Virus record (IMG/VR): IMGVR_UViG_3300031514_000003 | Span: 1 to 31,983 of that record | From: a virus | DNA: 31,983 bases | Reading direction: 5' to 3' (one strand) | Shown: positions 8,735 to 17,495 of the stretch, one piece after another | Layout of the letters: every line of letters begins with the position of its first letter | Numbering within the stretch: position 1 is the stretch's first letter | Notes under the pieces: model-generated | Seen by the model: only the letters and a program-made list of their open reading frames with translations | What the model was told of the DNA's origin: nothing | Databases searched by the model: none | Position numbers and translations under genes: made by a program

Positions 8735-10429
8735 ATGAGTCTTCGCCCATATCAACAGGCGGCCGTCCAGGCAGTTTATCATCACTTGCAAACACGAGAC
8801 GACAATCCAGTTGTTGTTCTACCGACAGCGGCCGGGAAAAGCTGGGTGATCGCTCAATTAGTTACCGATACCGTATGCCGTTGGCAAGGTCGGGTTTTAG
8901 TCCTCGCACACGTGAAAGAGTTATTGGAACAAAACGCTGAAAAGATTCAGCGGTTGTGCCCACACGTCTCTATCGGACTATATTCAGCTGGTTTGAATCG
9001 CCGGGATACCGATACACCAGTCCTTATTGCTGGTATTCAATCGGTGTATAAAAAGGCTTATGAGCTAGGGGCATTTGACTTAGTAATCGTCGACGAGGCT
9101 CATCTGATTCCGCCCGATAGTGACAGCATGTATCAAATGCTATTGGCGGCGCTTAAAGAGAACCAACCTTATTTACGCGTGGTAGGACTCACGGCCACGC
9201 CGTTTCGGTTAACAAGTGGACCAATTTGTACGCCAGATGGCATTCTGAATCATATTTGTTACGAAATTAGTATTCGGGAATTGATTCGTGATGGTTACTT
9301 GTGTCCACTCATCACCAAAACGAGCGCGCAGAAAGTGGATTTTCAATCGCTTCGTGTGCACGCTGGAGAATTTATTGCAACGGAAGTCGAACAGCTGATG
9401 GACGAGGATTGGCTGGTTGCGGCTGCCTGCAAAGAAATTCTTATGTATACTCACGACCGGCGAAGCGTATTAGTATTTGCGTCTGGTCGGCAACATGGAC
9501 AACACGTAGCAAAAATATTGAGAGAATTATCCGGGCAAGATATCGGGTTTATTGATAGCCAGACGCCGAGTGCTGAACGCGCCGAATTGATTGCGCGATT
9601 TCGATATGAGACGGCACGCCAAACCCTTTTTGAGCAACCACTCCAACCACTAAAATTTCTGGTGAATGTAAACGTCTTAACGACTGGATTCGATGCGCCG
9701 AATATTGATTGCGTCGCAATTTTGCGGCCTACAATGTCGCCGGGCCTCTGGTACCAAATGGTAGGCCGCGGATTCCGCACTTATCCCGGTAAACAAAATT
9801 GTTTGATTCTCGATTTTGGAGGCAACGCTTTACGGCATGGACCGGTAGACTGTTTAATACTACCACGTGCGCCCGGTCGGGGTGTAGGGGAAGCGTCTGC
9901 TAAAGAATGTCCGCAGTGTCATACAGTGATCGCGCTTGGTTACGCAGCCTGTCCGGATTGCGGCTATCAGTTTCCACCGCCAGAACGCAAACGCCATACC
10001 GCGTCGGCTAGTAGTATTGAGGTACTGTCCGGGCAAGTGAGTGAAACTGAATATGAAGTTTTGGACATTCGGTATGGCGTCTATCAAAAAAGAAATGCGC
10101 CGCCGGGCGCCCCGAATACAATGCGTGTCGAGTATAAGATCGCGAATTCGACTTGGATTTCCGAATGGATTTGTTTCGAGCATACGGGCTATCCGCGCTG
10201 GAAAGCCGAACAGTGGTGGAAGCAGCGCTCACCCGATCCGGTACCGGATACCGCACAGCGCGCTGTTGAAATTGCGCAAGGTGGTGGGTTAGCATATACG
10301 AAAAAAATTCGTGTTCGTTATATCGCTGGTGAAAAATACGAACGGATCGTAGGTTATCAACTCGGCCCAATGCCGGAACCAGTACCTGTAGGGGACACGA
10401 TAGACGATTTGTCCGATATTCCGTTTTGA
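8735..10429 (+). CDS. SF2 DEAH-box helicase with zinc ribbon
   Basis: 564 aa. RPYQQAAVQAV at the N-terminus, Walker A TAAGKS (31-36), DEAH (120-123), TATP (153-156), TTGFDAP (316-322) and QMVGRGFR (341-348) define a two-domain SF2 helicase of the phage/SSL2-RAD25-like type. A CPQC...CPDC zinc ribbon follows (392-409). Residues 430-564 form an extra Trp/Tyr-rich domain ending in an acidic tail (DTIDDLSDIPF), a composition seen in proteins that bind single-strand-binding partners. It probably unwinds or remodels replication and recombination intermediates. Confidence 0.85.
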   Translation: MSLRPYQQAAVQAVYHHLQTRDDNPVVVLPTAAGKSWVIAQLVTDTVCRWQGRVLVLAHVKELLEQNAEKIQRLCPHVSIGLYSAGLNRRDTDTPVLIAGIQSVYKKAYELGAFDLVIVDEAHLIPPDSDSMYQMLLAALKENQPYLRVVGLTATPFRLTSGPICTPDGILNHICYEISIRELIRDGYLCPLITKTSAQKVDFQSLRVHAGEFIATEVEQLMDEDWLVAAACKEILMYTHDRRSVLVFASGRQHGQHVAKILRELSGQDIGFIDSQTPSAERAELIARFRYETARQTLFEQPLQPLKFLVNVNVLTTGFDAPNIDCVAILRPTMSPGLWYQMVGRGFRTYPGKQNCLILDFGGNALRHGPVDCLILPRAPGRGVGEASAKECPQCHTVIALGYAACPDCGYQFPPPERKRHTASASSIEVLSGQVSETEYEVLDIRYGVYQKRNAPPGAPNTMRVEYKIANSTWISEWICFEHTGYPRWKAEQWWKQRSPDPVPDTAQRAVEIAQGGGLAYTKKIRVRYIAGEKYERIVGYQLGPMPEPVPVGDTIDDLSDIPF

Positions 10430-10440
10430 GGAGTCCTGAG

Positions 10441-10809
10441 ATGAACGAATTTCAACCCGATGTGATTGGGGATATTAGTTTCGTACCGCAAGAAGAGTTA
10501 ACTCGTTTTCCAACAGGTGCCGTACGCGGAACGGATGCGAACAATGAGCGCTGGGATTTGATTACGCCAATCGGTCTGCGCCGTTTGGCCGAGACGTGCG
10601 CCGAAGGAGCGCGTAAGTACGGTGATCATAACTGGCTGAAGGGAATACCGGCTAGCGTTATGCTAAATCATGCTATTCGACATATCTATTTGTATCTAGC
10701 TGGCGATACAAAAGAAGACCATCTTGCCCACGCCGCTTGGAATATTTTGGGCGTTTGTCATTTCGAGGAAGTTATGCCTGAAATGATCGATATTCCGACT
10801 CGAAAGTAA
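10441..10809 (+). CDS. dATP/dGTP diphosphohydrolase-like protein (MazZ/DUF5664 family)
   Basis: 122 aa. The ATG at 10441 follows AGGAG (10429-10433) by 7 bp; an upstream TTG at 10426 overlaps the helicase stop and has no site. The pattern ERWDLITPIGLRRLAE..EGARKYGDHNW..G......NHAIRHI......EDHLAHAAWN is that of the dGTP_diPhyd (MazZ) family of all-alpha, MazG-like NTP pyrophosphohydrolases. The family converts dGTP/dATP to the monophosphate. In some phages it feeds 2-aminoadenine synthesis, but no PurZ-like gene occurs here, so general dNTP-pool control is more likely. Confidence 0.75.
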   Translation: MNEFQPDVIGDISFVPQEELTRFPTGAVRGTDANNERWDLITPIGLRRLAETCAEGARKYGDHNWLKGIPASVMLNHAIRHIYLYLAGDTKEDHLAHAAWNILGVCHFEEVMPEMIDIPTRK

Positions 10810-10816
10810 TTGCGCC

Positions 10817-12481
10817 ATGACTGCGTCACTGTTGGACGCTGCCCTCTATTATGCTGAATTGGGATATCCGGTTTTTCCTTGCCGGCCCGGCGAGAAACAG
10901 CCGCTGACGCAGCATGGTTTTTTAGACGCCACGACGGATCCAGTACAAATCCAAGCGTGGTGGAGCCGTTGGCCGGAAGCCAATGTAGCCATTTCCACCT
11001 CTGGCTTATTGGTTATCGATGTGGACATTCAGGCGGCTGGCTGGCCTTCCGATCCGGAGCGCGCCGCACAGCTGGCTGAAGCAGGCGCAATATCCTTAAC
11101 GCCTAGAGGGGGGCGGCACTACCTGTTCCGTCGACCGCCCGGCAAGACGTGGCGTTGTTCGGTTGACCGATTGGCGCCCGGCGTCGATATTCGGACGGAC
11201 GGCGGGTATATTTTAGTACCGCCTTCGCAGACTGGCAAGCGATTGTATGGTTGGGTGCCTGGTCTGGAGCTTAATAAACCCGTCGAAGGGCTACCCGAAC
11301 CCCCTACATGGTTAGTAACGCTTTTAGACGCGCCCGAGACGCCCAGTCCATTTTCCAATACCGATGGATTTTCGGTGCCAGAGGGGCAACGGAATAACAC
11401 GCTGACGCGGTTGGCCGGCACAATGCGTCGGGCCGGTATGACGAAGGCCGAGATTTTAGCGGCTTTACGACAAGTCAATACCGACCGGTGCCGCCCGCCC
11501 CTACCACCCGCCGAGGTCGAACGGATCGCTCAGAGCGTCGCCCGTTACGAACCAAATCAAGCGGCCACTATTCTCGTTCACGGATTGGAAGCGCAGTTGT
11601 CCTCCGGCCCGAACGGTATACGTTTCGTCGGGATTTCGTCCGCCGAGTTGGCGGCAGCCCAATATACGTTAGAGTATCTAGTCGATAATATTTTAGTTCG
11701 TGGACAGCCAGGTATTATGGCCGGTCCGCGGAAAACACTCAAAACAAGTCTTCTGATCGATCTCGCTTTATCCTTGGCCGAAGGGGGTTTGTTTGTAGGG
11801 CGATTCAACGTTTTGGCGCCTGTGCGCGTGGGGATAATGTCCGGAGAATCCGGAGCGGCCACAATACAGGAGACGGCACTACGGATTGCGGCCGCAAAAG
11901 GGCGCTCTCTTACCGAATACGAAAATGTGATTTGGTGTTTCGAGGTGCCGCAGTTAGGCCACGCCTTTCATATGGTGGCACTGGAGGATTTTATCGTAGA
12001 GAATCGACTAGACGTATTGATTCTCGATCCGACGTATTTAATGATGTTAGGATTGGGCGAGGGCGCCAGCAATTTATTTATCGTGGGTCGGTTTTTGAAA
12101 TCGCTTAGCGCATTAACACAGAATACAGGCTGCACGCCTCTTCTGTGTCATCACCTGCGGAAAACTCGAGTCGAACCCTATGAACCACCCGAATTGGACG
12201 ATATTGCGTGGGCTGGATTTCAGGAATTCGTTCGTCAGTGGATTCTCGTTGGGCGAAGGAAAAAATATTTACCAGTCGACGAAGGTTATCACCGGCTTTG
12301 GTTGAACATAGGTGGTTCGGCCGGCCATGGTGGTTTGTGGGGGCTTGATGTTGATGAAGGAACTCGGCAGCAGCCAACCGGTAGGCGTTGGGAGGTTACG
12401 GTCTTAACGGCTCAAGAGGTATATCTGGCCGATCAGGAGTCACAGCGGCGTAGAAAACATAGCACTTGGCAGGGGTTTTAA
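10817..12481 (+). CDS. Primase-polymerase / RepA-like helicase fusion
   Basis: 554 aa. Residues about 5-165 are a bifunctional prim-pol domain: YPVFPCRPGEKQPL, catalytic DVD (68-70), the H101 motif (GGRHYLF) and DIRTDGGYILVPPS. Residues about 187-245 resemble the PriCT-1 helical domain. Residues about 285-500 are an AAA_25/RepA-type ATPase: Walker A AGPRKTLKTS (302-311), Walker B LILDPTYL (401-408) and a CHHLRKTR motif near 444-451. It would make primers (possibly short DNA) and unwind the fork. It is the main replication protein and sits directly before the putative origin. Confidence 0.85.
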   Translation: MTASLLDAALYYAELGYPVFPCRPGEKQPLTQHGFLDATTDPVQIQAWWSRWPEANVAISTSGLLVIDVDIQAAGWPSDPERAAQLAEAGAISLTPRGGRHYLFRRPPGKTWRCSVDRLAPGVDIRTDGGYILVPPSQTGKRLYGWVPGLELNKPVEGLPEPPTWLVTLLDAPETPSPFSNTDGFSVPEGQRNNTLTRLAGTMRRAGMTKAEILAALRQVNTDRCRPPLPPAEVERIAQSVARYEPNQAATILVHGLEAQLSSGPNGIRFVGISSAELAAAQYTLEYLVDNILVRGQPGIMAGPRKTLKTSLLIDLALSLAEGGLFVGRFNVLAPVRVGIMSGESGAATIQETALRIAAAKGRSLTEYENVIWCFEVPQLGHAFHMVALEDFIVENRLDVLILDPTYLMMLGLGEGASNLFIVGRFLKSLSALTQNTGCTPLLCHHLRKTRVEPYEPPELDDIAWAGFQEFVRQWILVGRRKKYLPVDEGYHRLWLNIGGSAGHGGLWGLDVDEGTRQQPTGRRWEVTVLTAQEVYLADQESQRRRKHSTWQGF

Positions 12482-12488
12482 GAGGCTC

Positions 12489-12546
12489 GCTATACGTTTT
12501 AGCCGTCGTTATAGCGATTATTAGGAAAAAAGTGATTTGGATTTCA
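12489..12546 (+). repeat. Diverged direct repeat, copy 1
   Basis: 58 bp, about four-fifths identical by eye to 12679-12737. Shared blocks are GCTATACG, TAGCCGTCG, AGCGAT and GGATTTCA. Internally CGCTATA (12488-12494) faces TATAGCG (12510-12516), so the unit can also fold. Weaker similarity continues for another 40 bp after both copies. Confidence 0.65.
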
Positions 12547-12608: not shown

Positions 12609-12679
12609 CCGGGTTGGAGGGGCGGTAGGGGGATCGATAACTTGCCCGGATTGGGTAGACCGGCCCCTTAACAACCCGG
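12609..12679 (+). repeat. Long-range inverted repeat between the direct repeats
   Basis: CCGGGTTG (12609-12616) pairs perfectly with CAACCCGG (12672-12679), and GGGGCGG (12619-12625) with CCGGCCCC (12660-12667) allowing one bulge. This gives a 71-nt structure whose right arm abuts the second direct-repeat copy. Confidence 0.5.
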
Positions 12680-12737
12680 CTATACGCTATAGCCGTCGCC
12701 AGAGCGATAGTCGGGATACAAGGTGATTCGGATTTCA
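12679..12737 (+). repeat. Diverged direct repeat, copy 2
   Basis: 59 bp related to 12489-12546. It contains a perfect small hairpin, GGCTATA (12678-12684) with TATAGCC (12688-12694) around CGC. The pairing in copy 1 uses different bases, suggesting that structure or a bound protein, not exact sequence, is maintained. Confidence 0.65.
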
Positions 12738-12883
12738 CGAAATAATCAAAATCGTTTGCTAACGTTTATGTGCGATGTTTTCGTTGTCGGCCAAATGGAT
12801 CGGACCATGGTAGGGGGGCAATGACCTGTGGGGGATACACTGCTCCCCCCTCCGTTTAGGGGGCGCCTAGATAAGTAAAATCG

Positions 12884-13085
12884 CGTATATATATAAATAA
12901 TTTTTATATTTATTAATTATATTTATATATATTTATTTATTTACTTATTTATTTATTTACTTATTTCCCCCCAGCTCTCAGCTCTCTTAAAAGAGCTGGA
13001 GCTGGGGGGGAAAGTGAAACAGGAAAATAAAAAATAAAAATAAAAAAATAATTTAAAAAATAAAAAATACTAAAATAAGTATATA
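12884..13085. repeat. AT-rich tract with tandem 16-mers and central GC hairpin
   Basis: 12884-12966 is almost pure A/T and ends in two perfect tandem copies of ATTTATTTATTTACTT (12931-12946, 12947-12962). A hairpin follows: C6AGCTC... (12967-12985) pairs with ...GAGCTGGGGGG (12992-13009) with one bulged T. Then 13011-13085 is almost pure A with scattered T. The strand is T-rich before and A-rich after the hairpin, so the flanks can extend the stem imperfectly into a giant cruciform. It looks like a DNA-unwinding element. Confidence 0.65.
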
Positions 13086-13087
13086 TT
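13082..13087 (+). promoter_or_regulatory. Possible weak promoter -10 (P3)
   Basis: TATATT (13082-13087) lies in GTATATATTATGGGAGG, loosely similar to the -10 regions of P2 and P4 (GTATATA...AGAGGG). No -35 box is evident in the A-rich DNA upstream. It lies 16 bp before the ATG at 13104, so a transcript starting from it would have a very short leader. Confidence 0.3.
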
Positions 13088-13103
13088 ATGGGAGGATCTA
13101 AAT

Positions 13104-13931
13104 ATGCAAGTTACTTGGTTACCAATACAGGATATTACACCTTATAAATTTTCGCCTAATATAAGTGAACAAATTATAGACGCTATTGTATTGTTTATAC
13201 AGAATTTTGGTTTTAAGCAACCTGTTGTTGTTGATTCACAGAAAAATTTAGTTACTGGTTTCGTATACTGGAAAGCAGCTCAAAAACTTAATTTACTCGA
13301 AATTCCCGCCTGCATTCTAACAGATATATCCGATAGTGAATTACAACAGTTGAGACAGGAGGACAGCCAGAAAAATGTGTTAGTCGAATTATGGCACGAA
13401 TTACTGCCTCTTGAACAGATGGTGCTGAAAGAAATTTTACAGCAGTTAAATTTAACTGATCAGCTTAGTCAACTCGAAATTTCACAAACTAATAGTCGAA
13501 AACAAACAAGCTCTCCGAAACGAAGATACACACCCCTAATCCGGGGATTGGTTTATCAGCCGCGGATGACTGAGGCGCCCTCAATTCAGGACCTATATGA
13601 CGATACCGAGTTGAAACTCTTGTTAGCGAAAATTGATACTTGTTCACTTTCGCCAGAATTAGCTTATTTTTTTCGTCTAGCGGCACATCGATTCGTAAGG
13701 TTTCGTTTCGATTTGATTGCGGAATATTACGCCCACGCAGACGAGAAGATTCAGAGGTTGATGCGCGAATTGATTTTAGTGATTGTAGATTCTAACGACG
13801 CGATTACGCGAAACGTCTTACGATTAAGCCAAGAGTTAATTGATCTCATCCTAGAAACAGAAACCAGCAACATGAAAAAGGAAGCCGACTCATGTCTACT
13901 ATCCCCACCGAACGAAGAGCTGGAGTCTTGA
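13104..13931 (+). CDS. ParB-like (ParB/Srx N-terminal domain) protein
   Basis: 275 aa. GGGAGGA (13090-13096) precedes the ATG. Residues about 1-95 follow the ParB/Srx-like fold as used in phages: IQDITPYKFSPN..., then FIQNFGFKQPVVVDSQKNLVTGFVYWKAAQKLNLLEIPACIL, then a DSELQQLRQEDSQKN segment. The usual GHTR motif is altered to GFVYWKAA, so the CTPase/nuclease chemistry of classical ParB may be lost. Residues 150-275 are helical and unassigned. The first 400 bp are much more AT-rich than the neighbouring genes, continuing the AT-rich origin. The end overlaps the glycosyltransferase gene by 40 bp. Confidence 0.65.
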   Translation: MQVTWLPIQDITPYKFSPNISEQIIDAIVLFIQNFGFKQPVVVDSQKNLVTGFVYWKAAQKLNLLEIPACILTDISDSELQQLRQEDSQKNVLVELWHELLPLEQMVLKEILQQLNLTDQLSQLEISQTNSRKQTSSPKRRYTPLIRGLVYQPRMTEAPSIQDLYDDTELKLLLAKIDTCSLSPELAYFFRLAAHRFVRFRFDLIAEYYAHADEKIQRLMRELILVIVDSNDAITRNVLRLSQELIDLILETETSNMKKEADSCLLSPPNEELES

Positions 13932-14788
13932 TTCTTTCTTATCGGCGAGCAGGGAAAATTAGAACACTAAAAGCACTGCAACAAATCAAATGGACTGGAC
14001 CAGTTTATATTGTCGTATCGAGTGATGACGAGCAATTGCCTCAATACCGTGAACTGTATCCTAACCTCTATGTGTTTGATCGGCAGGCAGTACAATGTGA
14101 TTATTACGATAATCTCCCCCCCACCGGTCCTTTAGCTGCCCGAAACAAGGCTTGGGATATCGCGCAGGATTTAGGCTGGACGCACTTTGTGGTGTTGGAT
14201 GATGATTATAAGCATTTTCAAATCTACTCTTTGTGGCCCGGCAACCCGAATCACCATGGCGTGATTCGTTGGGTACCGGAAGGTTGGGGGGATCGCCTAT
14301 TTCATCGGATGTGGGATTTTCTGGACAATACGCCAAAAGTCTTGTGTATCACGTTTTCGCAGACAGGCGACGCAAATCCACAAACGCGACGAAAAATAAT
14401 GCAGACATTTTTCTTACGGACGGATCGACGGTTTGAGTTTGTGGCCCGACTAAATGACGATGTTACGACATATTATGACCTTGGGCTTCGCGGCGAGGTA
14501 GTGATTCAGATTCCAGCTATTATGATATATCAAGGCTGCACGCAATCACAGCCGGGTGGATTAACGGAAGAGTATTTACGTTATGGCACCTACGCAAAAT
14601 CGATGTATACTGTTCTCCGCTGGCCGGCACATTGTAAGGTAGCGTATTTACCACAGGTAGGGCGCGTGCATCATCATATTGTTAGGTATCCGTATCCCTG
14701 TATTATTCGGGAACCGAACGCTCCGGATATAGACGCATTAGATTTGGGTATGAACTGTATATCGATGAGTGTGGAGGAAAAAGAATGA
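13892..14788 (+). CDS. GT-A glycosyltransferase, resembling TET-associated type
   Basis: 298 aa. AAGGAAG (13877-13883) lies within the end of the ParB-like gene. The N-terminus GVLILSYRRAGKIRTLKAL, the segment GPLAARNKAWDIAQDLGWTHFVVLDDDYKHF (79-109; metal-binding DDD 103-105) and the long C-terminal part with conserved His/Tyr residues give a GT-A fold. The arrangement recalls the phage TET-associated glycosyltransferases that decorate modified DNA bases, but I see no TET/JBP or base hydroxymethylase gene. Glycosylation of DNA or of a virion protein are both open. It overlaps the next gene by ATGA (14785-14788). Confidence 0.65.
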   Translation: MSTIPTERRAGVLILSYRRAGKIRTLKALQQIKWTGPVYIVVSSDDEQLPQYRELYPNLYVFDRQAVQCDYYDNLPPTGPLAARNKAWDIAQDLGWTHFVVLDDDYKHFQIYSLWPGNPNHHGVIRWVPEGWGDRLFHRMWDFLDNTPKVLCITFSQTGDANPQTRRKIMQTFFLRTDRRFEFVARLNDDVTTYYDLGLRGEVVIQIPAIMIYQGCTQSQPGGLTEEYLRYGTYAKSMYTVLRWPAHCKVAYLPQVGRVHHHIVRYPYPCIIREPNAPDIDALDLGMNCISMSVEEKE

Positions 14789-15117
14789 TTTATTTGGCGA
14801 GCCCGTATTCACATCCCGATCCGGCAGTACGGCAGAAAAGGTTTGAGGCCGTCTGTCAGGTGGCAGCCGACTTGATTCGCCAAGGTTATATTGTTTTTTC
14901 TCCGATTGCGCATAGTCATGTAATCGCTCAACATGGGTTGCCAACCAATTGGGAATTTTGGGAGGAACAGGACCGACAGTTTATCGCCGCCTGCGATCAA
15001 GTTTGGGTGTTAATGATAGACGGCTGGGAACAAAGCCGTGGAATTCATGCCGAACTCACTCTCGCAAAACAACTGGGGAAACCTATCCGATTTTTGCCGG
15101 GACCAAAAATTGAATGA
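14785..15117 (+). CDS. DUF1937 protein (nucleoside deoxyribosyltransferase-like fold)
   Basis: 110 aa, matching the DUF1937 pattern almost throughout: MIYLASPYSHPDPAVRQKRFEA at the start, GYIVFSPIAHSHVIAQHG (34-51), FWEEQD and the end GWEQSRGIHAELTLAKQLGKPIRFL. The family is related to nucleoside 2-deoxyribosyltransferases, with the Rossmann-like MIYLASPYS strand and the SRG...E motif near the active site. Whether it is catalytic is not known. The start codon overlaps the previous stop, so it is coupled to the glycosyltransferase. A nucleotide or base-handling role would fit that neighbour. Confidence 0.75.
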   Translation: MIYLASPYSHPDPAVRQKRFEAVCQVAADLIRQGYIVFSPIAHSHVIAQHGLPTNWEFWEEQDRQFIAACDQVWVLMIDGWEQSRGIHAELTLAKQLGKPIRFLPGPKIE

Positions 15118-15251: not shown

Positions 15252-15315
15252 GGGCAGCCCCCAACGCTCGTTCATGGAGGAACTGGCGTCTAGCCATGAG
15301 GGCTGGGGGCTGCCC
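15252..15315 (+). promoter_or_regulatory. Structured 5' leader of late transcript
   Basis: GGGCAGCCCCCA (15252-15263) pairs perfectly with TGGGGGCTGCCC (15304-15315). An inner stem joins TCATGG (15272-15277) to CCATGA (15294-15299), with GGAGGAACTGGCGTCTAG exposed between them. It starts about 15-20 nt after the predicted start of P4 and ends 36 bp before the first late gene. It matches no riboswitch class I know. It may protect the late mRNA or be bound by a protein. Confidence 0.6.
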
Positions 15316-15351: not shown

Positions 15352-15546
15352 ATGGATTTGGAACAGATGGCACAAGAGCTTAAGTTAGCAGTCCAAGACG
15401 CCTGTAAAACAGGGACGCTACGAATCGGTATCAGTTTAGCAATAGCGGAAACGCTATTGGAAATTTTACAAGAGTTAGTTCAAGAATCGACTGAGATTGT
15501 CTATGGTTATGCGTTTGAGAAAGCGAATACTAAATACGGGCCCTAA
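15352..15546 (+). CDS. Small helical protein, paralogue A
   Basis: 64 aa. AAAGGA (15340-15345) lies 7 bp before the ATG at 15352. An in-frame ATG at 15274 would place the start inside the leader hairpin and is rejected. The protein is an acidic helix hairpin: MDLEQMAQELKLAVQDA, then LAIAETLLEILQELVQESTEIVYGYAFEKA. It aligns along nearly its whole length with the next gene's product. It is the first gene of the late unit. The function is unknown; a small regulator or assembly factor is possible. Confidence 0.7.
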   Translation: MDLEQMAQELKLAVQDACKTGTLRIGISLAIAETLLEILQELVQESTEIVYGYAFEKANTKYGP

Positions 15547-15575: not shown

Positions 15576-15764
15576 ATGAATCTTATTGAACGAGCTCGAC
15601 AACTCAAAGCCGTAGTACGCGACGCGATCGAAGACGAAGCGCTAACGCTACAGGATACGTTAGAGGTGATTTGGATTTTAACGAAACTTTTACAGGAGTT
15701 GGCTGGGGAAGCTGAACGGATTGCGTATCGAGAGTGCGTTGAGAAAACCGTCGATACTCAATAG
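15576..15764 (+). CDS. Small helical protein, paralogue B
   Basis: 62 aa. The sequence AAAGGTGAC lies before the ATG at 15576. The pattern M-L---A--LK--V-DA...L-----L-I--L--LLQEL--E-E-I-Y----EK is shared with the 64-aa product just upstream, so the pair is a tandem duplication. Both are acidic and helical with no Cys or membrane segment. A heterodimer is conceivable. The function is unknown. Confidence 0.7.
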   Translation: MNLIERARQLKAVVRDAIEDEALTLQDTLEVIWILTKLLQELAGEAERIAYRECVEKTVDTQ

Positions 15765-16190: not shown

Positions 16191-17495
16191 ATGAAACACC
16201 AAATCAGTTATTGGCTTACCGGTCTTGGGATTTTGTTAGCGTTTAGTTTAGAGCGTTTCGTTGTTGCCCAGTGTGATAGTGGGGGGTGCCGTGCGCCCAT
16301 ACAAACGCCCAGTATCCAAGGCATGAATACTATACCGCCCAGTCTGGCGGTATGCCGAATTGAAGTGGGAACCGGCCCAGTGAAATCGATCGGTACTGGC
16401 ATGGCCGTTTCGAGTAATGGCCAACAGACTGCAATCTTAACAGCGCGTCATGTGGCGGGGCGAGTTGGTTTGCCGGCTGCAGCGATGTTTCCAGACGGGA
16501 CACGATTGGAAGGACGGACGTCCGTGTTGTGTCATGAAGCAGACGTTGCGATTATCGTAGCCGAAGGCCGTGCGCCACAATTAATTTTGATTGCATCCGA
16601 AACCCCGGCTATGGGTACACTAGTCGCGTATGGAGGATTTGATGGTGGCCGAGGCTGGCAACACCGAATGGGGCGATTGGTCCGGCAAACACTGACTGGT
16701 GATTGGGTGATTACCGGTCCTGCGCGGGGAGGGGATAGCGGTGGACCGGTGTGGACGGCCGCTGGTTTGGTCGGCGTGATTTGGGGTACCGACGGACAGG
16801 AAACGTTGTGTACAAGTTTACCGCAACTGGTGAATTTTTTTGAATCGAAACGCTATATTTTTCCATGGAACGCATGGTTGGAGGACCGGAAGGACGCTCG
16901 ACAACACGGGCAGATATCACCTCCACAGCCAATGCCTCATACTCCGCTTCCTCCAAGCCAGCCGTCTGGACCGAATCCGCCAGTCGTGTTTCCACAACCC
17001 TCTATGGTGCTTCCGGTAGAGTTCGTACAGCGACTCGCTGTTCTCGAATCGAAACTAGCGGCGTTGGAAGTAAAAATTGGCCAATTGGAGGGCACGGTTA
17101 CCGGCTTGGCAACACAGAGCGGCTCGGCGGCAGAAAAAGCCGCCGGTGCCGCTAATCTCGCAGAAGAAGCCAAACGCCACGTTGAGGCAGTAGGCATCAC
17201 GCTGTTAGGACAAGTGAAAAATTATATCCTTGGTTTACTCCCGATTGGTTGGGGAGTACCGATTGTTGTTGTAGTATTTGTTGCTGCTTTTCTTATTTGG
17301 CGAGATGTTCACAACCGAAAGAAAACCGGTGATCCGCTAGAAATCGAAAAACTGTTCCAGCGTTTAGCAGCTAAAACGCCAACACCTATTGACGACTGGT
17401 TGGTCGATAAACTTAGTAAAGCCTTGGACCTGGTCCTACCACGGCCAGCGTCTAGGGAATCTAGCACGTCTGGGAAGAAAGGAAAATCGGTATGA
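16191..17495 (+). CDS. Secreted, membrane-anchored trypsin-like serine protease
   Basis: 434 aa. Residues 1-26 are a signal peptide (hydrophobic YWLTGLGILLAFSL, possible cleavage after VVA26). Residues about 50-220 form a chymotrypsin-fold protease with the full triad: TARHV (H87), EADVAI (D118) and GDSGGP (S183). A Pro-rich linker (242-272), an Ala-rich coiled coil (276-335) and one transmembrane helix (about 354-370) follow, then a basic cytoplasmic tail (371-434). This puts the protease outside the inner membrane. The stop overlaps the next start (ATGA at 17492), tying it to a holin-like protein. It may act in lysis, entry or superinfection exclusion. Confidence 0.85.
   Translation: MKHQISYWLTGLGILLAFSLERFVVAQCDSGGCRAPIQTPSIQGMNTIPPSLAVCRIEVGTGPVKSIGTGMAVSSNGQQTAILTARHVAGRVGLPAAAMFPDGTRLEGRTSVLCHEADVAIIVAEGRAPQLILIASETPAMGTLVAYGGFDGGRGWQHRMGRLVRQTLTGDWVITGPARGGDSGGPVWTAAGLVGVIWGTDGQETLCTSLPQLVNFFESKRYIFPWNAWLEDRKDARQHGQISPPQPMPHTPLPPSQPSGPNPPVVFPQPSMVLPVEFVQRLAVLESKLAALEVKIGQLEGTVTGLATQSGSAAEKAAGAANLAEEAKRHVEAVGITLLGQVKNYILGLLPIGWGVPIVVVVFVAAFLIWRDVHNRKKTGDPLEIEKLFQRLAAKTPTPIDDWLVDKLSKALDLVLPRPASRESSTSGKKGKSV

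Follow-up and report, generated by a model that had tools for sequence, protein, structure and literature searches.

To our knowledge, every DNA glycosyltransferase characterized so far requires a hydroxylated base, which other phage enzymes make. Among transferases of phages T2 and T6 are members of the TET-associated glycosyltransferases (TAGT, Pfam PF20691); according to PMC13216743 these T2 and T6 enzymes are beta-glucosyl-HMC-alpha-glucosyltransferases, and that paper models a GT-A fold for the one in T6. The survey in the same paper counts 288 of 753 genomes with a TAGT and neither an alpha-GT nor a beta-GT and suggests that new kinds of transferase may be at work; solitary TAGTs had already been noted there as potentially novel enzymes. 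Its main text contains no occurrence of ParB, and its passages on solitary TAGTs do not include the partner domain that is described below.

Here we analyze a stretch of viral DNA of 31,983 bases (the window), which is one whole IMG/VR virus record and may be a fragment of a genome. Three open reading frames on its plus strand overlap as had been noticed in an earlier, sequence-only reading: gene 1 (13104..13931, 275 aa), gene 2 (13892..14788, 298 aa) and gene 3 (14785..15117, 110 aa). The ORF list confirms these frames, with overlaps of 40 nt between genes 1 and 2 and of 4 nt between genes 2 and 3. Each gene is preceded by a Shine-Dalgarno-like sequence, and the G+C content of gene 1 is 39%, compared with about 50% across most of the record.

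Gene 2 encodes a TAGT-family glycosyltransferase. Its product matches PF20691 with 88.9 bits (E-value 5.6e-25, cut-off 27.5) and phrog_842, and its predicted structure has a GT-A fold (pLDDT 82.5, pTM 0.83) that Foldseek aligns with solved GT-A enzymes, including glucosyl-3-phosphoglycerate synthase and SpsA. The assignment of this protein to the GT-A glycosyltransferases in the sequence-only reading is thus borne out. The same is true of its proposed resemblance to transferases of DNA hypermodification, as the T6 ggt protein, annotated as glucosyl-HMC glucosyltransferase, also scores above the PF20691 cut-off. Like the T2 and T6 TAGTs, the window enzyme is phage-encoded, belongs to the same Pfam and PHROG family and carries a DxD motif; the GT-A fold is a further likeness to the T6 enzyme as modeled in PMC13216743. 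T6 ggt is detectable via the Pfam and PHROG profiles only, and shows no detectable relationship to a profile of the clade that contains the window TAGT.

The putative active site is retained in gene 2. A DDD sequence at residues 103-105 (14198..14206, plus strand), which is a nucleotide-sugar/metal motif of the DxD type, is nearly invariant among 93 homologues, and D190 (14459..14461, plus strand) is an invariant second acidic residue in the homologue alignment and a candidate catalytic residue. R19 and an HH pair are likewise present, and are invariant or nearly so in the same 93 proteins. The window copies of both proteins of the pair diverge from their relatives. When the window transferase alone served as the query, a scan of viral contigs returned no relatives, nor did a scan of genome contigs with one single relative as the query, and the transferase profile gave nothing meaningful against the sequences of solved structures.

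The product of gene 1, termed the partner protein, is composed of a ParB_N-like N-terminal half and a C-terminal helical domain, as indicated by Pfam, PHROGs, a structure model and Foldseek; phrog_620 spans nearly all of it. The ParB_N/sulfiredoxin-fold domain (13104..13418, plus strand) has Foldseek matches to ParB, Noc and sulfiredoxin, and its Pfam score (27.1 bits, 4.2e-6) is barely above the ParB_N cut-off of 26.3. The GxxR motif of the nucleotide site is missing from this copy, in which GFVY stands in place of the relatives' GHxR, and the arginine kept by 90% of relatives is a tyrosine. The C-terminal domain (13521..13829, plus strand; about 100-115 aa), as defined by the homologue alignment and the structure model, matches no Pfam or NCBIfam model. 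It is modeled as helices, with pLDDT values >90 for residues 151-220, and Foldseek with the full-length protein recovered relatives of the ParB_N domain only. The description of gene 1 as ParB-like therefore suits its N-terminal half, even with the GxxR arginine lost, but not its C-terminal half, which is a separate domain.

The partner domain and TAGT are linked in an obligatory manner in both directions, and this linkage is widely conserved. In reference viruses of Lactobacillus, E. coli, Haloarcula, Nocardia and Porphyromonas, as well as in a human-gut contig, a ParB-like gene abuts or overlaps the TAGT gene on its upstream side, and the pair is located at or near the terminase genes. A further 80 viral loci likewise have the partner unless the contig stops short of it, and the only TAGT loci without an upstream partner lie where a contig ends or belong to the Aeromonas 65 branch. 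When 98 loci were retrieved via the C-terminal domain alone, a TAGT was found downstream in 97, the remaining locus being cut by a contig end. Direct adjacency was scored in 92 of these 97 loci; in two of the other five the ORF calling seems to have misjudged a start codon or a frame, and in the last three a single gene intervenes. Frames overlap in 152 of 160 distinct partner-TAGT pairs, and the organism groups of 28 phage records with the C-terminal domain all fall within those of TAGT records.

ParB_N, by comparison, is an optional N-terminal addition to the partner domain. This half is absent from many TAGT loci, where the C-terminal domain stands alone as a protein of ∼130 aa. On a tree of 77 labeled tips, the presence or absence of ParB_N changes 9 times, compared with a mean of 26 for shuffles, and therefore ParB_N has been repeatedly gained or lost, yet is inherited for stretches. 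In the Rac prophage of E. coli K-12 MG1655, YnaK (L097, 5878-6141) is a truncated ParB_N half of a partner protein, and the remainder of the pair is missing. K-12 YdaY was considered as a TAGT remnant and rejected, as this prophage keeps only the ParB_N protein YnaK.

ParB_N domains of the same type also precede other DNA-modifying enzymes. ParB_N-DNA methyltransferase fusions of temperate phages (Lj771 type) have a ParB_N that is up to 88% identical and occupies the same slot ahead of the terminase genes, whereas their effector is a methyltransferase and not a partner domain with a TAGT. The exchange is visible in a comparison of the Lactobacillus phage jlb1 with the related Lactobacillus prophage Lj771. 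Their ParB_N domains are 88% identical, and their DNA is 69-98% identical upstream and 83% identical across the TerS/TerL terminase genes, while a cassette of 1.4-1.5 kb between the end of ParB_N and the terminase genes differs, encoding the partner domain and TAGT in jlb1 and an N6_N4 DNA methyltransferase in Lj771, where ParB_N lies out of frame with the methyltransferase. For the 595 phage records with a ParB_N of the jlb1/Lj771 type, many annotated DNA methyltransferases are among the matches listed. A similar arrangement involves Mom, which modifies adenine by another chemistry. In phiEf11 and a phage-plasmid of L. amylovorus (PF25680, 1.2e-39), a ParB_N gene directly precedes and overlaps the Mom gene, resembling the window pair in the order of a ParB_N protein followed by a DNA-hypermodification enzyme, but no glycosyltransferase is present. 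Six ParB_N records of kinds other than these were sampled, and none contains a TAGT. Three clustered ParB_N genes lie before a terminase gene, with no TAGT, in the E. coli phage-plasmid p142_C (L098, 3989-8420).

Pairs that lack ParB_N adjoin DnaB, PolA, primase or RecA-like genes, and the families among their immediate upstream neighbors include DnaB, AAA_25, AAA_24, PolA, PDDEXK nucleases and Toprim. In L190, a protein resembling the DNA polymerase III beta-clamp (9265-10356) is encoded directly 3′ of a TAGT that lacks ParB_N. Several relatives carry additional genes: two or three TAGTs (L029, L090, L193, L195 and L197), a SAM methyltransferase that is either fused or placed in between (L036, L037, L169 and L187), a radical SAM enzyme (confirmed by Pfam in L008 and L195, with a similar protein by eye in L196, L197 and L200), a UDP-galactopyranose mutase (L193, 1e-63) or a cytidylyltransferase (L090 and L199). 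The extra TAGTs, mutase, methyltransferase and radical SAM enzymes suggest that elaborated sugars may be made. In L201, an N-terminal extension resembles a P-loop kinase by eye and has no Pfam match.

On the basis of these sequence comparisons, we predict, with a probability of about 0.68, that the products of genes 1 and 2 work together as a module that glycosylates phage DNA. The main argument for DNA as the substrate is that the ParB_N slot exchanges the TAGT module for a DNA methyltransferase; a second, circumstantial argument is that the pair sits in packaging and replication gene neighborhoods. The TAGT would move a sugar from a nucleotide-sugar onto bases of phage DNA that is replicating or about to be packaged. 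We infer that the obligatory partner domain, which is the C-terminal half of the gene 1 product, binds this enzyme and holds it in position, and that ParB_N, where present, guides it to DNA, as it apparently does for the methyltransferases and Mom enzymes that other phages encode in this slot. The glycosylated DNA might then be shielded against nuclease-based host defense. The sequence-only reading had likewise suggested a glycosylation that protects phage DNA, and for gene 1 and the TAGT this idea is supported by the enzyme family, the obligatory partner and the ParB_N shared with methyltransferases and Mom, whereas the DUF1937 protein and MazZ-like enzyme that it included do not, from these data, belong to the module.

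A much less likely explanation is that TAGT glycosylates a protein, whether the partner itself or a protein of the virion or the host, with the ParB-like partner serving as substrate or adaptor. The obligatory partner has invariant Arg and Tyr residues that are compatible with a role as substrate, and SunS and COLGALT1, which glycosylate proteins, are among the enzymes that share the GT-A fold. Moreover, RefSeq names the family “GREB1-related” after the eukaryotic protein GREB1, which is reported to glycosylate a protein, and some E. coli copies are annotated “GREB1-related protein” beside “ParB/Srx family”. However, DNA is favored by the occurrence of this ParB_N with DNA methyltransferases and with Mom at the same slot, and by the location of the pair in replication and packaging modules. 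It is improbable that the enzyme instead modifies the host surface (envelope or teichoic acid) and causes superinfection exclusion. Surface polysaccharides are often modified by GT-A/GT2-type enzymes, and the UDP-galactopyranose mutase and cytidylyltransferase neighbors of a few relatives would suit such a role, but the commonest families immediately upstream of ParB-less pairs belong to replication and recombination, and the viruses that carry the pair infect Gram-positive bacteria, Gram-negative bacteria and archaea, whose envelopes differ.

The sequence-only reading had proposed that all three genes could form, with a MazZ-like enzyme, a new base- or nucleotide-glycosylation pathway, considered here as one that would operate on precursors. 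Its annotations agree with our searches. Gene 3 is a DUF1937 protein (76.7 bits, 2.7e-21, cut-off 23) that resembles nucleoside 2-deoxyribosyltransferases with a Pfam score slightly under the cut-off (6.1e-6), and a gene 2.3 kb upstream of the unit (10426-10809) matches dGTP_diPhyd_N, in line with a MazZ-like enzyme. The overlap of the three frames and the proximity of this upstream gene are compatible with such a pathway. Nevertheless, DUF1937 occurs in only one of 41 related records, which is the window record itself, and had no match among the related loci first retrieved; a survey of genomic neighbors for the three families finds that the partner and TAGT travel together and that DUF1937 does not. 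The conserved unit is thus a two-gene core, and the DUF1937 gene is probably a passenger of nucleotide metabolism. Homologues of dGTP_diPhyd_N appear in two of the related loci retrieved, and PurZ-type adenylosuccinate synthetase has no match in the window record, itself perhaps a fragment, which speaks against a place for the MazZ-like enzyme in the pathway. We regard the precursor pathway as very improbable, and least probable of all is a ParB-type partition system of a phage-plasmid. Gene 1 does match ParB_N, and several phage copies are annotated as partition proteins, but its score against the parB_part model (17.9 bits, cut-off 58.45) is far below that of a full partition protein, the pair can do without ParB_N, and no ParA-like family was found among the window proteins scanned.

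In T6, ggt adjoins uvsX and the gene for dCMP hydroxymethylase, and no partner domain is encoded in its vicinity. The window pair is distinguished from the T6 system by its obligatory partner, its optional ParB_N and the lack of a recognized hydroxymethyl-pyrimidine pathway. Thymidylate synthase/dCMP hydroxymethylase (PF00303) was found in two of the 41 related records and a C5 methyltransferase in one, and PF00303 has no match in the window record; because these records may include fragments, the absence of acceptor-making enzymes is weak evidence. TAGTs associated with TET in metagenomic phages belong to the same Pfam family, and neither TET_JBP nor 2OG-FeII_Oxy_6 matched in any of the 41 related records, but control genomes were silent for both as well. 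As enzymes for 5-hydroxymethyl-pyrimidines are missing from nearly all of these records, the putative sugar acceptor in DNA may be a base that carries no prior modification. Alternatively, an unrecognized enzyme, possibly the partner domain, could prepare the acceptor, or the host could supply it. We tentatively propose, at less than even odds, that the pair glycosylates an unmodified base directly, just as methyltransferases and Mom take unmodified bases as their substrates, with swappable ParB_N domains as targeting elements and with accessory enzymes that build larger or unusual sugars.

If so, bacterial and archaeal viruses, as well as E. coli prophages, would glycosylate DNA with no need for a precursor base that has first been hydroxylated. 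More generally, modification of DNA by the pair in phages without hydroxylating enzymes would imply either new chemistry or an unknown route to the acceptor. The exchange of enzymes behind one ParB_N would also suggest a function for many phage genes labeled “partition protein”. Within the searchable literature we found no description of the obligatory partner or of the ParB_N exchange: searches on ParB with TAGT or Mom returned nothing on the pair, although ParB and TAGT may have been mentioned together before, and searches for reports that HHTV-2 or L. delbrueckii phages resist restriction gave nothing on it either. The prediction is testable, as a close version of the pair (proteins WP_001291105.1 and WP_001204028.1) exists in E. 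coli, whose prophage TAGT is found, with at least 80% of its length covered, in 867 of 5,426 complete E. coli genomes.

The DNA around the three genes has additional features. A promoter and a terminator had been suggested to flank the unit, but sequences resembling sigma-70 promoters or terminators occur no more often than expected by chance. The flanks instead contain two strong hairpins without T-runs, one in an AT-rich stretch 5′ of gene 1 (12964..13012, z -6.0) and one 3′ of the DUF1937 gene (15252..15315, z -4.5), and an Rfam search of the window gave no match. The AT-rich region at 12880-13090, which includes palindromes and the first hairpin, lies 3′ of a Prim-Pol gene (10817-12481) and is a candidate replication origin. 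A 44-nt direct repeat with an inner palindrome is found nearby (12489-12532 and 12679-12722, 75% identical). At the left end of the record, positions 27-1697 encode a protein with SAM-methyltransferase and GT4-like glycosyltransferase domains. Downstream of the unit, two small neighboring proteins (15352-15546 and 15576-15764) are paralogous, with 35% identity over 57 aa, and the first of them probably starts at 15352 rather than 15274. They are followed at 16191-17495 by a trypsin-like peptidase (PF13365) whose end resembles the small phage proteins phrog_402 and phrog_2738.
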